Positions 1,578 to 8,271 of a DNA stretch of 64,000 nucleotides are shown in pieces. The stretch covers positions 1-64,000 of the forward strand of contig JAHBVX010000016.1 of the NCBI GenBank assembly GCA_019637295.1. Direction: 5' to 3'. A program made the position numbers and the translations under genes. The notes beneath the pieces were generated by a model. The model saw only the letters and a list, made by a program, of their open reading frames with translations, did not search any database and was not told where the DNA came from. Origin of the DNA: Polyangiaceae bacterium. GTDB lineage: Bacteria; Myxococcota_A; Polyangia; Polyangiales; Polyangiaceae. Positions within the stretch are counted from its first letter, which is position 1. Each line of letters begins with the position of its first letter.

Positions 1578-1786
1578 CGCCGGTTCGCTGCACCTGCGGT
1601 GTGTGCTGGGACTGGTTGGACGTCCCGAGCCTGGGTCTTCAGGACGACGGCGCCGGGGGCCTACTCGACCTGCGCAACTGCCCGTCCTGCGGAACCACGC
1701 TCGCTCGCGAGGTGCAGTCATCAAGCCTCGCTCCCTACGAACGCACCACCCAGAGGGGAGCGCCATGCAACACCACCTTCCACTGA
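1574..1786 (+). CDS. Small zinc-ribbon protein
   Basis: A 70-residue protein with two cysteine knuckles, CTCGVC near residues 6-11 and CPSC near 42-45, typical of a treble-clef or zinc-ribbon fold. Between the knuckles it reads DWLDVPSLGLQDDGAGGLLDLRN, a pattern of a structured loop rather than a linker. It starts at a GTG overlapping the previous stop codon. Its last 22 bases overlap the start of the exonuclease gene. Such tiny zinc ribbons are common in phage early operons; its partner, nucleic acid or protein, cannot be told. Confidence 0.6.
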   Translation: MTPVRCTCGVCWDWLDVPSLGLQDDGAGGLLDLRNCPSCGTTLAREVQSSSLAPYERTTQRGAPCNTTFH

Positions 1787-2745
1787 TCACCGCGAGCCGG
1801 GTCCGGGCTTTCCAGCGGTGCCCTCGCTACCACCACATCCGCTACAACCTCGGCTACCGGACCACCGAGCGAGCAGCCCCCCTCGCATTCGGGTCGCTCT
1901 TCCACCGAGCCCTGGAGGCATGGTGGACCGCCGCCGACGGGCCACGCATCGAGGCCGCACTCGAGCAGCTCGACCGCGAGGTCGACTCCGACCCCTACGA
2001 CCTCGCGCGGGCTCAGGCGCTCATCGAGGGCTACGATATCCGGTGGTCCGATGCGGGGCTCACGCCCGAGCTCGTTGAGGCCACCTTCGAGTTGCCGCTC
2101 ACGAACCCGCAGACCGGCGCCGCGTCGCGGACGTACCGTCTCGCCGGGAAGGTGGATGCGATTGTCCGCTCGGGTCCTCAGCTCTGGCTGCTCGAGCACA
2201 AGACTACGAGCGAGACCATCACGCCCGGCAGCGCCTACTGGGCGAAGCTGCGGATGGACAACCAGGTCTCGATGTACCTGAACGGGGCCGAGGCTTTGGG
2301 TCGACCCGTCTCGGGCTGCATCTACGACGTGATCGGCAAACCGACGCTGCGCCCCTACAAGGCCACGCCTCCTGAGGTCCGCAAGTACAAGAAGGACGGC
2401 TCGCTGTACGCAAACCAGCGAGAGGAGGACGAGACACCCGAGGCGTATCTCAGCCGTCTCCGTTGGGACATCTCCGAGAACCCCGACCGCTACTACCAGC
2501 GCGCTGAAGTCGTGCGCATTGGCGACGAACTGCAGGAGTTCGACTGGGAGCTCTGGCAGACGGCGCGGGCCATCCGCGACGCCGAGATCGCCGCGCGACA
2601 CCCGCGCAACCCCAACGCTTGTTTTCAGTGGCAACGCCCCTGCGACTACTTCGACGTCTGCAGCGGCAGCGCCTCACTCGATGACGTCTCGCGGTTCGTC
2701 CACGAGACCGACCCACATCCGGAACTGCAGGAGGAACACCAATGA
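1765..2745 (+). CDS. PD-(D/E)XK (RecB/Cas4-like) exonuclease
   Basis: A 326-residue nuclease of the PDDEXK_1/Cas4-RecB type. The N-terminus has SRVRAFQRCPRYHHIRY (conserved Cys at 19), then FGSLFHRALEAWW with the motif-I His, then the catalytic core VDAIV (Asp) and LLEHKTTS (Glu-x-Lys) near residues 130-150, and a C-terminal CFQWQRPCDYFDVC cluster near 285-300. The N-terminal Cys and the C-terminal three could hold a 4Fe-4S cluster, as in Cas4 and AddB. The ATG at 1765 follows GAGGGGAGCGCC, a good ribosome binding site. It overlaps the next gene by ATGA. In this context it is expected to resect double-stranded ends for the single-strand annealing proteins that follow. Confidence 0.85.
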   Translation: MQHHLPLITASRVRAFQRCPRYHHIRYNLGYRTTERAAPLAFGSLFHRALEAWWTAADGPRIEAALEQLDREVDSDPYDLARAQALIEGYDIRWSDAGLTPELVEATFELPLTNPQTGAASRTYRLAGKVDAIVRSGPQLWLLEHKTTSETITPGSAYWAKLRMDNQVSMYLNGAEALGRPVSGCIYDVIGKPTLRPYKATPPEVRKYKKDGSLYANQREEDETPEAYLSRLRWDISENPDRYYQRAEVVRIGDELQEFDWELWQTARAIRDAEIAARHPRNPNACFQWQRPCDYFDVCSGSASLDDVSRFVHETDPHPELQEEHQ

Positions 2746-3644
2746 GTCGAATGGCACAAATCGCAACGAGTGGCGGCAACAGGGGTCGTCGGATCCTTAT
2801 CTACGGGCCTCCCGGCGTCGGCAAGTCCACGCTCGGCGCAGACGCGCCGGGGGCAGTGGTGCTGCCGGTCGAGGAGGGCGTCGACGATCTCGAGGTCGCG
2901 TCGTTCCCTAGGCCCCAGAGCTGGGAGGAGATTCTAGAGGCGGTGGACGTGCTGGCCGCGGGCAAGACGGCGCACAAGACGCTCGTCATCGACACCGTCA
3001 GCGCAGCCGAGACACTCGCGCACCGGCGGCTCATCGAGGGCAGCAAGTGGAACACTGTCGAGAAGTGGGAAGGTGGCTACAACAAGTGGCGCCAGGGCGT
3101 GCTCGACATCTGCTGGCGCCCACTGCTCGCTCGTCTCGACGCGCTGCGGGCCAGCACCGGGATGACCGTCATCCTCCTCGCCCACAGTCAGGTGAAGGCC
3201 GTACGGGACCCAGACAGTGAGGGCTGGGACCAACACCAGATCCAAATGGAGGGGCTCGCCGCGGGGCTCCTGACGGCCTGGTGCGACGTGGTGGCGTTCT
3301 ACGCCTTCGACGACATCAGGGTCGTGGAGGGCAAGGCTCGAGGCGTACACACGGGCCGGCGGGTGCTGCGAGCGGAGCATTCGGCGACTGCGGTCGCGAA
3401 GAACCGGGTGGGACTACCGGAGCTGCTCGAGGTGCCGCTGGCTGCGCCGTGGAGCGCGCTCGGGCGATACCTGGCACCGCGCGATCTGGCGACGGAGCTC
3501 GCTGAGCTGACGGCTCAGCTCCCGTCGGACGCGGCGGAGCGTGCCAGCCGCGCGGCCAAAACCGCGGACAAGGCCACGATGGGCCGAATCATCTCTCACG
3601 CGCGCCGCTTGGTCGCGCAGCAACAGGAAGGAGCATCAGCATGA
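2742..3644 (+). CDS. Sak4-like RecA-fold ATPase (phage recombination)
   Basis: A 300-residue P-loop ATPase. Walker A is GPPGVGKST at residues 22-30 and the Walker B strand is TLVIDT near 80-86. The RecA-core layout, with a short N-terminus and LLAHSQVK in the sensor region, matches phage AAA_24/Sak4 proteins, which act with SSB-like partners in single-strand annealing or exchange. The C-terminal 60 residues are helical and Ala-rich. It overlaps both neighbours by four bases (ATGA), and lies between an exonuclease and an SSB-like gene, the usual arrangement of a phage recombination module. A generic phage ATP-binding protein is the fallback name. Confidence 0.8.
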   Translation: MSRMAQIATSGGNRGRRILIYGPPGVGKSTLGADAPGAVVLPVEEGVDDLEVASFPRPQSWEEILEAVDVLAAGKTAHKTLVIDTVSAAETLAHRRLIEGSKWNTVEKWEGGYNKWRQGVLDICWRPLLARLDALRASTGMTVILLAHSQVKAVRDPDSEGWDQHQIQMEGLAAGLLTAWCDVVAFYAFDDIRVVEGKARGVHTGRRVLRAEHSATAVAKNRVGLPELLEVPLAAPWSALGRYLAPRDLATELAELTAQLPSDAAERASRAAKTADKATMGRIISHARRLVAQQQEGASA

Positions 3645-4105
3645 TCGCAAGGGGAACATACACCGCTCGGGCGCAGGGATTCGAGTTTGGCGTGACGGCG
3701 AAGGACAGTGACTTCGTCTCGGTCGAGTTCGAGATCCGCGGAGGCCCGGCCCACGTGGGCGACCGCATCGGGTGGCGTGGTTATTTCACTGAGAAGACCA
3801 CGGACCGGACACTCGAGAGCCTGAAGCACGCCGGCTGGGACGGTCGCGACGTCATGCTCCTTCAGGGGCTCGGGAGCCGGGACTGCCAGATCGTGGTGGA
3901 CCACGAGGAGTACGATGGGAAGACCTACGCTCGGGTACAGTGGGTCAACGCCCACGGCGGCGGCGGCCTGGGGCCAGGCCAGCAGATGGACGAAGCGCGC
4001 AAGCGCGCGTTCGCCGCTCGGATGCGCCGGTTCACGGGTGGCGCGCCGGCGGGAGCGCCCACGGCGCCGGCACCCGCGTTCGACGAGGACGACGTCCCGT
4101 TCTGA
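3641..4105 (+). CDS. DUF669-like single-stranded DNA-binding protein
   Basis: A 154-residue protein with a beta-rich N-terminal domain (GTYTARAQGFEFGV, then FVSVEFEIRGG, then GRDVMLL and DHEEYDGKTYARVQWV), a pattern like DUF669-type phage proteins. It ends in a Pro/Ala linker and the acidic tail FDEDDVPF, closely similar to the DDDIPF tail with which bacterial SSB recruits partner proteins. That tail and the position after a Sak4-like gene suggest it coats single-stranded DNA and recruits the ATPase. It follows the ATPase stop by an ATGA overlap. A hairpin-forming repeat follows its stop codon. Confidence 0.8.
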   Translation: MIARGTYTARAQGFEFGVTAKDSDFVSVEFEIRGGPAHVGDRIGWRGYFTEKTTDRTLESLKHAGWDGRDVMLLQGLGSRDCQIVVDHEEYDGKTYARVQWVNAHGGGGLGPGQQMDEARKRAFAARMRRFTGGAPAGAPTAPAPAFDEDDVPF

Positions 4106-4106
4106 G

Positions 4107-4151
4107 CCTCGGCTCCCCTCGGGTCCAACTCGCAGGTCAGGCGAGCCGAGG
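4107..4151. other. Inverted repeat just after the SSB-like gene
   Basis: CCTCGGCTC at 4107-4115 and GAGCCGAGG at 4143-4151 are perfect reverse complements separated by 27 bases. It begins two bases after the stop codon of the SSB-like gene. There is no T-run after it, so an intrinsic terminator is not supported; it may mark the end of one translational unit or protect an mRNA 3' end. Confidence 0.4.
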
Positions 4152-4200
4152 GTGTGTTGAGCGGCGCCCTGGTGACGTGCGCCGGCCCTGACCAACGTCA

Positions 4201-4271
4201 CCTCTTTCAGTCGGCGGACGAGCGTGAAGCGGCATCCCCTCCTGCGCCGTTCGTCCGCCGACTGAAGGAGG
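4201..4271 (+). promoter_or_regulatory. 24-bp-stem hairpin occluding the ParB-like gene's RBS
   Basis: Bases 4201-4224 can pair with 4248-4271 over 24 consecutive positions with a 23-base loop. The 3' arm ends in AAGGAGG, the Shine-Dalgarno sequence for the ATG at 4275, so in the mRNA the ribosome binding site would be fully paired. The only two departures from perfect complementarity (4205/4267 and 4222/4250) are G-U pairs in the plus-strand RNA, which favours a role as RNA over a DNA operator. Possible functions are translational control of the ParB-like gene, opened by a protein, by an upstream ribosome or by processing, or an RNase III-type site. Confidence 0.75.
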
Positions 4272-4274
4272 CCC

Positions 4275-5915
4275 ATGACCCAACTGATGATGATTTCCCC
4301 CGCGAAGCTGACTCCGTCACCCACCAACCCGAGGCGCGACCTCGGGGACCTGACGGAGCTGATCGAGTCCCTGCGGCAGCACGGGATGATCGAGCCCATC
4401 GTCGCGCGTGAAGGCCGAACGGCCGACGAGTACGAGGTGGTGTGCGGCCACCGTCGCCACGCCGCCGCCCAGGTGATCGGTCCGGAGCCCGTCCCCGTCC
4501 TGGTGCGCGAGCTCGACGACGACCAGGTGCTCGACATCCAGCTCGCCGAGAACATGGAGCGCTCGGACCTAACGGCCTTCGAGGAGGCCGAGGCCTTCCA
4601 GCTGCGGGTATCGCGCGGGCAGACGGTCGAGCGCATCGCCGCGCGGATCGGTCGGAGCGCTGGCTTCGTCGCCCAGCGCCTCAAGCTGCTGGAGCTCCAC
4701 CCCGAGGTGCAGCAGGCGCTCCGCGAGGAGGCCATCAGCGTCTCGGTCGCGCAGCTGCTGGGGCGGCTGCCCGCCGACCTGCAGGAACGCGCTCTCGAAG
4801 ACGTTCAGGTCGGCCCCGAGGATCGGGTTCGGACCGTCGCCGAGGCGAAGGCTGAGCTGGGACGGATCCTGCGCCGACTGGACCGCGCCCCGTTCGACGT
4901 AGCGGACCCGTCGCTCGGGCAAGACGAGGAGCACGGGGCGCGTGGCGCTTGCACGACCTGCCCGATGCGGAGCGGCAACCAGGGCCGGCTCTTCGACGCG
5001 GACGAGGAGGACTACTGCCTCGACGAGCCCTGCTACCGGGCGAAGTGCTCGGCTATGGCGCGGCGTGCCGAGCTCGCGGGCAAGCCGGTGTTGCGCGGGC
5101 AGGAGGCGGCGACCGCGCTGCAGAGCTGGGGCGGCGACTGGGTGCGACTGGACACTGAGGTCTGGATCGAGGACGCAGCGAAGCTCGCGGCCTTCGATGA
5201 TGGCGACGATGACGTTGCGGATGATGTCTCGCGGGAGATATCGGTTCGCGAGTTGCTCGCCGAAAGCGACCACGAGCCCACACTAGCGTTCAATGAGGAG
5301 ACGGGCACGGTCGCGGAGGTGGTGCCGAGGCACGTCGTGGACGCGGCCGTCGCGCGAGCTGAGGGGAGGGAGCCGGAGGCGCCCCCGGACCCGGGTGGCC
5401 CCGCGAAACAGAATGCGGCGGCCAAGCGTGAGGAGAAGGAGAAGCTCCGGAAGCGCGCCATCGACGCCTACATCAAGCAAGCGGCCGGCCAAGCGGTGTC
5501 GATCTCGCCCGACGTCCTGCTGGGCCTACTGGTGCGAGCGCTGGCTCGGCAGACCGAGCACACGAGCGTGCTGCGGGTGCTGAAACGTCTGGGCATCAAC
5601 CCAGGCGATGAGGGGGCTCGCATCGCCTTGTCCCGTCACGCCGGCGTCGTGCTGCCCAGTCGCCTGCCGGCGCTGGCGCTGCATCTCGTGCTCGAGAACG
5701 CTGCGCCTTGGTTCTTCCCTCTCGGGGATGACGGGGACGATGTCGACGAGGACCACGACACGTCGTCGCTCTGGGACGACGCGCAACGGGTGGTGTCGTC
5801 GCTGGAGCTGCTGGACGTGAGGGGCGTTGAGAAGGAGCTCGTCAAGGCCGACAAGGCGAAGGCGAAGAAGAAGGCCCCGGCCAAGCGGGCGAAGAAGAGC
5901 GGAGGCGCAGCATGA
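4275..5915 (+). CDS. Large ParB/Srx-domain protein with Cys cluster
   Basis: This 546-residue protein begins with a ParB N-terminal domain: the NPR motif (TNPRRDL, residues 17-23), a GHRRHAAA motif near 58-65, and LAENMERSDLTAFEEAEAF near 96-114. A helix-turn-helix follows (ERIAARIGRSAGFVAQRLKLL), as in ParB/RepB/Spo0J proteins. A mid region carries CTTC...CLDEPCYRAKC, a possible metal site, and the end is Lys/Ala-rich (KAKAKKKAPAKRAKKS), likely DNA contacting. No ParA partner is visible. Related phage ParB-like proteins act in regulation, plasmid-prophage segregation or as nucleases, and the CTP-binding GERRxR-type motif is reduced here to GHRRHAAA. ATG 4275 is preceded by AAGGAGG, buried in a hairpin. 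Confidence 0.8.
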   Translation: MTQLMMISPAKLTPSPTNPRRDLGDLTELIESLRQHGMIEPIVAREGRTADEYEVVCGHRRHAAAQVIGPEPVPVLVRELDDDQVLDIQLAENMERSDLTAFEEAEAFQLRVSRGQTVERIAARIGRSAGFVAQRLKLLELHPEVQQALREEAISVSVAQLLGRLPADLQERALEDVQVGPEDRVRTVAEAKAELGRILRRLDRAPFDVADPSLGQDEEHGARGACTTCPMRSGNQGRLFDADEEDYCLDEPCYRAKCSAMARRAELAGKPVLRGQEAATALQSWGGDWVRLDTEVWIEDAAKLAAFDDGDDDVADDVSREISVRELLAESDHEPTLAFNEETGTVAEVVPRHVVDAAVARAEGREPEAPPDPGGPAKQNAAAKREEKEKLRKRAIDAYIKQAAGQAVSISPDVLLGLLVRALARQTEHTSVLRVLKRLGINPGDEGARIALSRHAGVVLPSRLPALALHLVLENAAPWFFPLGDDGDDVDEDHDTSSLWDDAQRVVSSLELLDVRGVEKELVKADKAKAKKKAPAKRAKKSGGAA

Positions 5916-6974: not shown

Positions 6975-7141
6975 CCGAGCCCGAGCACACCTACTCGGGC
7001 AACTGCTGGGAACCGTCCGAAGGATGCCCGTGCGGCGTCGACCTGTGCGACGTATGCCACGAGCACTGCGCGCCACGGTGCGAGTGCGAGCAGTGCCCAC
7101 CGTGCCCCGGGTGCCCGGGGATGACGGAGACCCAGCCATGA
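6971..7141 (+). CDS. 56-residue Cys-rich protein
   Basis: This reading frame holds 11 cysteines in 56 residues, including CPCG, CDVCHEHC, CECEQC and PPCPGC. The spacing suggests two metal-binding knuckles. It starts at a GTG overlapping the previous stop and ends in ATGA with the integrase start at 7138, so it is part of the coupled operon. No family is recognised; it is too short to appear in a 60-codon ORF list. A zinc-binding regulator of the integrase or an excisionase-like cofactor is possible, but this rests only on position. Confidence 0.55.
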   Translation: MTEPEHTYSGNCWEPSEGCPCGVDLCDVCHEHCAPRCECEQCPPCPGCPGMTETQP

Positions 7142-8271
7142 GCGCCTGGGTGGAGCGTCGAGGCGAGCGCTTCCGCGTCCGCTCCCGGATCGCCGGCCGC
7201 ATCGTGACCGTCGGGACCTACCCGACCGAGGGCGAGGCCTCGCGCATCCGCGACGCGTACGAGCGCCGCCAGCGCGTCTCCGAGGTGCGCCGTGGTCTGA
7301 CCCTCGCGGTCTTCGGCGAGAGCTTCCTGGCGGCCAGGCAAGCCCGTGGGGTGCGGGGCAGGGGACCGGAGGCTAGCCGCTGGTCGACCTACATCGTCGG
7401 TGACCCCATCGGTCAACTCGTGCTCCGCTCCCTGCGCCGTCGGGACGTGCTGGAGTGGCGCGATCGCCTGCTCCGCCGAGGCCTCGCCGCCCAGACGGTG
7501 AGGAACGCCCTGAACCTGCTTCGCTCCGCCCTGGCCGATGCTCTCGACGCGGAGATCGTGGCCGAGAACGCGGCCCTGACCGTCCGGGTGCCCCGGAGCG
7601 CCACGACGACGACGGTGGAGGAGCTCAGCGGCGTCCTGCGCCCACTGGAGCAGCAGGCCCTACTTGCCGCCGTCCCGGAGCGCTTTCGCGCGATGGTGGC
7701 GCTCGCGCTGCTGACGGGGCTGCGCTGGTCGGAGCTCGCGCACCTGCGCTGGGAGGACGTGCGGGACGACGTGATCGTCGTGCGGCTGTCGCGCGGTGGG
7801 CTGGCCACAAAAGCAGGACGCCCGCGTCTCCAGCCGATGCTGGAAGCGACGCGGGCGGTGTTGGGCGGGATGCCCAGGGTGGGGGAGCTGGTGCTGGGAG
7901 GAGACAGGGCTTCGGGCTGGCGCCCTCGAGGCTGGACGAGCTGGGTGCGCGCCGCCGGCATCACGCGACGCGTGCGGTGGCACGACCTCCGCCACACCTG
8001 CGCGACGAGTCTGCTGGCGGGCTGGTGGGGGCGACGCTGGTCCCTCGAGGAAGTCCGGGGCTACCTGGGCCACCGGAGCGTCACGACGACCGAGCGCTAC
8101 GCGCGGCTCCTCGACGACACCATCGCGCTTGCTGTCAGCGAAACGGCTGCTCCCCACATGCTCCCAGTGGTCGAATCCGCCGGCGACGAAACCAGCAGTA
8201 TTTCTGCGGCGCCCCCGGCAAGAGTCGAACTTGCGACCAACGGTTTAGGAAACCGCTGCTCTATCCACTGA
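7138..8271 (+). CDS. int: Tyrosine site-specific integrase
   Basis: A 377-residue phage-type tyrosine recombinase. An N-terminal arm-binding region (residues 1-65) is followed by a SAM-like core-binding domain and the catalytic domain. The catalytic set is complete: Arg near 196 in TGLRWSEL, His282-Asp-Leu-Arg285-His286 in HDLRHTC, His312 in GYLGHRS and Tyr321 in ERYARL. The frame is open upstream to 6946, but ATG 7138 (ATGA overlap) starts the conserved MSAWVERRGERF segment. About the last 20 codons, to the TGA at 8269-8271, lie inside the oppositely oriented tRNA-Arg gene, so the attachment core overlaps the coding region and excision may change the C-terminus. It is the last gene of the element's plus-strand operon. 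Confidence 0.92.
   Translation: MSAWVERRGERFRVRSRIAGRIVTVGTYPTEGEASRIRDAYERRQRVSEVRRGLTLAVFGESFLAARQARGVRGRGPEASRWSTYIVGDPIGQLVLRSLRRRDVLEWRDRLLRRGLAAQTVRNALNLLRSALADALDAEIVAENAALTVRVPRSATTTTVEELSGVLRPLEQQALLAAVPERFRAMVALALLTGLRWSELAHLRWEDVRDDVIVVRLSRGGLATKAGRPRLQPMLEATRAVLGGMPRVGELVLGGDRASGWRPRGWTSWVRAAGITRRVRWHDLRHTCATSLLAGWWGRRWSLEEVRGYLGHRSVTTTERYARLLDDTIALAVSETAAPHMLPVVESAGDETSSISAAPPARVELATNGLGNRCSIH

Follow-up and report, generated by a model that had tools for sequence, protein, structure and literature searches.

Genes and prophage context of the ParB-like gene

We analyzed a 64-kb stretch of DNA (hereafter, the window), in which a long inverted repeat lies between an SSB-like gene and a ParB-like gene near one end of a predicted prophage. 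The features discussed below are listed in Table 1. The genes on this side of the window form a recombination operon in the order Cas4-like exonuclease, Sak4, SSB, ParB-like, small genes, and integrase, and from Sak4 onward every start except that of parB overlaps the preceding stop (2742/2745, 3641/3644, 5912/5915, 6337, and 6789). Between the end of ssb (4105) and the start of parB (4275), there is a gap of 169 nt. The first-pass annotation of this DNA had described the start of the ParB-like gene as the only non-coupled start in the operon, and this is correct for the operon from position 1765 on, where parB alone has no overlap with its upstream neighbor.

Table 1. Genes, repeats, and hairpins around the start of the ParB-like gene (positions in the window)
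Feature	Position	Strand	Annotation
Cas4/PD-(D/E)XK exonuclease	1765..2745	+	PF12705; phrog_1218
Sak4-like single-strand annealing ATPase	2742..3644	+	Pfam AAA_24, 9.3e-36; phrog_124
SSB-like gene, upstream of the ParB-like gene	3641..4105	+	phrog_378
IR1, hairpin directly after the ssb stop	4107..4151	+	CCTCGGCTC...GAGCCGAGG; RNA −23.7 kcal/mol, z −3.2; without T-tract
IR2, weak inverted repeat (z about −2)	4171..4202	+	GGTGACGT-16-ACGTCACC; last two bases overlap the hairpin 5′ arm
Possible 4-bp extension of the stem	4197..4279	+	GUCA 4197–4200 with UGAC 4276–4279; would also pair the UG of the start codon
Hairpin 5′ arm	4201..4224	+	nt 1–7 of the arm, CCTCTTT, form the anti-SD strand
Hairpin loop, 23 nt	4225..4247	+	TGAAGCGGCATCCCCTCCTGCGC; includes CCTCCT, a second potential anti-SD
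Hairpin 3′ arm	4248..4271	+	holds the SD AAGGAGG, 4265–4271
ParB-like gene (546 aa), next gene downstream of the hairpin	4275..5915	+	ParB_N PF02195, 2.8e-19; HTH_ParB PF17762, 3.1e-12; phrog_6218, 5.3e-44
Tyrosine integrase at the attachment tRNA	7138..8271	+	PF00589; phrog_1
att repeat in tRNA-Arg(CCT), 48 bp	8208..8255	.	equals the 3′ part of the tRNA; second copy at C11:32033–32080

The integrase reading frame extends into tRNA-Arg, which is encoded on the other strand (8208–8271), so that the att site encodes the C-terminus of the integrase. On another contig (C11), positions 1–32080 encode a primase-helicase, terminase, portal, Mu-like head, sheath, tape measure, baseplate, and endolysin. 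Because this contig carries both phage genes and the second copy of the att repeat, we infer that C11:1–32080 and the first 8.26 kb of the window are two parts of one temperate contractile-tailed prophage of ~40 kb, which is integrated in tRNA-Arg and split by a contig break. A tRNA gene lies within the head-gene region of the prophage (L216, i.e., G000:C11, 14387–14455). Beside the primase-helicase gene, GGTCCAACC/GGTTGGACC occurs as nine exact copies, in both orientations, within 240 bp (L216, 8100–8370), and no copies were found elsewhere in the 40-kb prophage. This cluster is probably an iteron origin of replication and is a better candidate for that role than the hairpin before the ParB-like gene, which is unlikely to be an origin because the same phage has the iterons beside its primase-helicase.

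A 24-pair hairpin buries the SD of the ParB-like gene

The two arms of the inverted repeat form 24 contiguous pairs in the sense RNA, including two that are not Watson–Crick pairs, both of them G-U (U4205–G4267 and G4222–U4250). The RNA MFE of the hairpin 71-mer was −51.3 kcal/mol (z −8.3), and none of 200 shuffles was as good. On the opposite strand the 71-mer folded at −47.7, and both G-U pairs became A-C mismatches. In dinucleotide-preserving shuffles (n = 400) of the 185-nt intergenic region, the longest stem had 12 pairs. Furthermore, the hairpin has the longest uninterrupted stem of the window, in which the runner-up has 15 pairs (nine fewer), and the maximum over 1.3 Mb of other fetched DNA was 20 pairs. 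The 16-bp core of the arm has no second exact copy in the 7.65-Mb genome, and when it was searched genome-wide at up to three mismatches, the counts equaled those of the reversed control. From the limit set by the shuffles, the ranking by stem length, and the single-copy arm core, the hairpin is therefore neither a product of chance nor a dispersed repeat. The 24-position stem, the 23-base loop, and the arm ending at AAGGAGG, all of which had been proposed at the first reading of the sequence, are thus borne out by pairing, MFE, and shuffles. The same reading had noted that the imperfections of the stem are G-U in the sense RNA and A-C on the other strand, which holds at both positions. Its further step, that these pairs reveal selection on the mRNA, is weak because, if two transitions hit a perfect inverted repeat at random, both appear as G-U pairs on a given strand with a probability of 1 in 4.

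Several other identities were considered for the hairpin. A dispersed repeat of the REP or MITE type was rejected, the arms being unique in the genome, as was an intrinsic terminator, there being no T-tract after the stem. Among known RNA families (riboswitch, thermometer, or leader), Rfam gave only sub-threshold matches to microRNA-like hairpins. An excess of 22–25-nt loops among long stems was suggestive in five cases and was gone in a set of 68 stems of at least 14 pairs.

The SD of the ParB-like gene lies wholly within the 3′ arm, which ends on the last G of the SD. The spacing from the SD to ATG 4275 is 3 nt (CCC); the first-pass annotation had located the SD correctly and had put it four bases before the ATG, a figure that is reached by counting the ATG position. 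AAGGAGG is the sole good SD of the gene, and the internal alternatives, ATG 4287 and ATG 4290, are without an SD. Upstream, TGA 4263 closes the parB frame, and a longer start is therefore impossible. No leader ORF ends suitably near ATG 4275 for coupling to it. The only in-frame stop close upstream, TGA 4263, is preceded solely by a 13-codon GTG mini-ORF that has no SD and begins where the 5′ arm ends. Leader-peptide coupling was rejected on account of the absence of an upstream ORF ending suitably close to the start.

Predicted effect of shortening the RNA from its 5′ end

The accessibility of the SD was calculated for RNAs with different 5′ ends. When the RNA began at or before 4201, the unpaired probability of the SD was 0.00, and opening the region from the SD to the ATG cost 11–14 kcal/mol. 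When the RNA began at 4204 or later, the SD was unpaired with a probability of 0.2–0.5, and opening cost about 4–7 kcal/mol in nearly all cases; one RNA start in the loop, with a cost of 7.5 kcal/mol, was an outlier among the 5′-shortened RNAs. Because so small a truncation lowers the cost, an RNA that lacks just the base of the 5′ arm, through either internal initiation or nuclease action, is predicted to have the block of the SD relieved. The RNA-level gating suggested in the first-pass annotation is supported in part: the SD is buried, the start is uncoupled, read-through RNA is predicted to be closed, and 5′-shortened RNA is predicted to be far more open. On the other side stand the weakness of the argument from mRNA selection, the lack of a comparable hairpin before any of 90 distant ParB-like homologs, and a possible DNA-level role of the repeat.

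Relatives of the ParB-like gene and of its leader

ParB-like homologs were gathered from viral contigs, phages, plasmids, and genomes, and their proteins were about 25–42% identical. No relative nearer than about 42% identity came from protein, profile, and DNA searches of collections of viruses, phages, plasmids, and genomes. When the leaders of 91 ParB-like genes were compared (that of the window and 90 others), the leader in the window ranked lowest in MFE and also in SD accessibility (0.00; the next was 0.17). None of the 90 other, distant leaders had a comparable SD-burying hairpin, and none could be aligned with that of the window. Similarly, a DNA search of 379 genomes of the phylum gave no related ssb–parB gap, only short chance pieces. 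As far as the collections show, the hairpin appears to be specific to this phage lineage. An apparent parallel on the plasmid pACPOL3 (L038), a stem ending at the SD before a parB-like gene, was attributed to chance, since the stem is not the MFE structure and has a z of −0.5.

Other structured elements were observed in the collected sequences. In two prophages of one related genome, a common structured element lies directly after ssb (L051, 3193–3350, and L082, 3521–3660). It has a long conserved outer stem and an inner helix with three compensated pairs, it has no Rfam match, and exact copies of its 3′ stem occur once each in two further genomes (G155 and G029). In two prophages of another genome (L079 and L080), a strong hairpin follows ssb, with differing sequences that still pair. 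Meanwhile, the parB-like coding sequence of a viral contig contains an inverted repeat whose 20-bp arms match perfectly and are separated by 22 bp (L108, 3645–3706).

Control of the ParB-like gene on read-through RNA and alternative explanations

We see about an even chance that the main function of the hairpin is to act in cis, at the RNA level, as a silencer of the ParB-like gene on read-through RNA. Transcripts entering from the Cas4-Sak4-SSB genes would fold the SD of the ParB-like gene into the 24-pair hairpin and would not be translated there, and the ParB-like protein would be made solely from RNA without the base of the 5′ arm. The hairpin could be opened by a transcription start inside or after it, as in the T4 I-TevI/soc/e arrangement, or by cleavage of the long duplex by RNase III, as in the adhE/lambda cIII arrangement. 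RNase III uses roughly two turns of duplex. The host genome encodes this enzyme (TIGR02191, 220.8 bits, over the curated cut-off), and the stem, with 24 pairs, provides the duplex of ~20 bp or more that an RNase III-activated leader would need. A sigma-70-like promoter was not found around the hairpin, and phage promoters need not fit the sigma-70 type. RNase III is slightly favored as the opener because the duplex exceeds its roughly two turns and because a promoter-like site was not found. We infer the folding of the RNA in the cell, the silence of the gene on read-through RNA, and the opening agent alike. Several points weigh against silencing as the main function: the hairpin was not seen in any relative, the sigma-70-like promoter search around it was negative, the stem is far longer than the hiding of an SD needs, so it could have another purpose, and the inverted repeat is equally present in the DNA.

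In the main rival explanation, the inverted repeat acts as DNA, as a site for the ParB-like protein (an autoregulatory operator or a centromere-like site) or for another phage regulator, with the RNA hairpin as a side effect. In its favor, the repeat lies right beside a gene that encodes ParB_N and HTH_ParB domains, the small inverted repeat IR2 adjoins the repeat, and the repeat in the distant ParB-like phage gene of L108 has a similar geometry. However, the repeat in the window is single copy in the genome, the L108 repeat differs from it in sequence, and a DNA site would leave unexplained why the repeat ends exactly at the last G of the SD. Furthermore, a 24-bp arm with a 23-bp spacer is, to our knowledge, longer than known ParB sites, and we consider this explanation rather unlikely. 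In a further reading, the ParB-like protein (or a phage antisense RNA) acts on the hairpin as its own operator, in RNA or in DNA, so that a ParB-family member gates its own translation via an mRNA hairpin; this seems decidedly improbable.

The hairpin may instead be chiefly an element that processes the mRNA or insulates ssb from parB, serving as an RNase III site or protecting the 3′ end of the ssb mRNA, with the burial of the SD being of little regulatory weight. The long duplex and the RNase III of the host are consistent with this explanation, as is the location at a polycistronic boundary, in the sole intergenic gap of the operon. In addition, other Cas4-Sak4-SSB prophages (L051, L077, L079, L080, and L082) repeatedly carry a hairpin immediately behind the ssb stop, such post-ssb hairpins seem to be a recurring feature of this module, and IR1 is their counterpart in the window. 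Nevertheless, IR1 would suffice for the 3′ end of ssb, and the 5′ arm exactly complements the SD, so that we regard a chiefly processing role as unlikely. A non-functional palindrome, produced by template-switch correction of a shorter quasi-palindrome and kept by chance, would account for the perfect repeats, which such events yield, and for the absence of conservation in distant homologs. It is improbable, given that burying the sole SD of an intact, well-formed reading frame would be costly and that the presence of two G-U pairs points to a repeat of some age in which pairing was retained. Finally, the feature is known from one assembly only, but its arms differ at two positions, it lies 4.2 kb inside the contig, and the flanking frames are intact, which makes an assembly artefact very improbable indeed.

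Comparison with known systems

Terminal inverted repeats of the IS10/Tn10 type protect transposases from read-through expression. As in those elements, the gene behind the hairpin would be silenced on transcripts entering from outside, whereas the hairpin in the window does not mark an element's end and has no transposase. The parS and operator sites of ParB-family proteins share with it an inverted repeat beside a parB-like gene; the repeat in the window is far longer-armed, is single copy, overlaps an SD, and is only a putative site. Further copies in the replicon, of the kind seen for parS, were not found, the arm core being unique in the genome.

The closest parallels are two experimentally described kinds of control element in which an RBS is occluded in RNA, and both match the anatomy of the hairpin. 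In E. coli adhE and lambda cIII, an occluded RBS is freed by RNase III (PMC5371410). The hairpin in the window likewise places the RBS in duplex RNA that is long enough for RNase III, and the enzyme is present in the host; however, it has no sequence in common with these two, and its cleavage is hypothetical. In T4 I-TevI, I-TevII, I-TevIII, segB, soc, and e and in Aeh1 mobE, hairpins sequester the RBS on early/middle read-through transcripts, and in T4 and its relatives, translation occurs from a late transcript whose start lies too far downstream for the hairpin to form (PMC2988022). The hairpin before the ParB-like gene resembles these in being, by prediction, a stable hairpin of phage read-through mRNA with the SD in its 3′ arm, and in that removal of the 5′ arm is predicted to open the RNA. 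In contrast to the T4-type hairpins, it has 24 uninterrupted pairs and a 23-nt loop, and belongs to a ParB-like gene of a temperate phage in a high-GC host; no sigma-70-like internal promoter was found for it.

If the proposed silencing is true, RNA structure alone separates the ParB-like gene of a temperate phage from the phage's own recombination operon, and RBS occlusion in the style of T4 and lambda extends to ParB-like genes, here in a high-GC host. The hairpin would then also be a natural translational lock of great strength, with an opener that could be identified directly. The RBS-hiding hairpin is probably a known kind of phage control acting here on a new gene, and its chief interest lies in the extreme length of the stem and in the nature of the gene.
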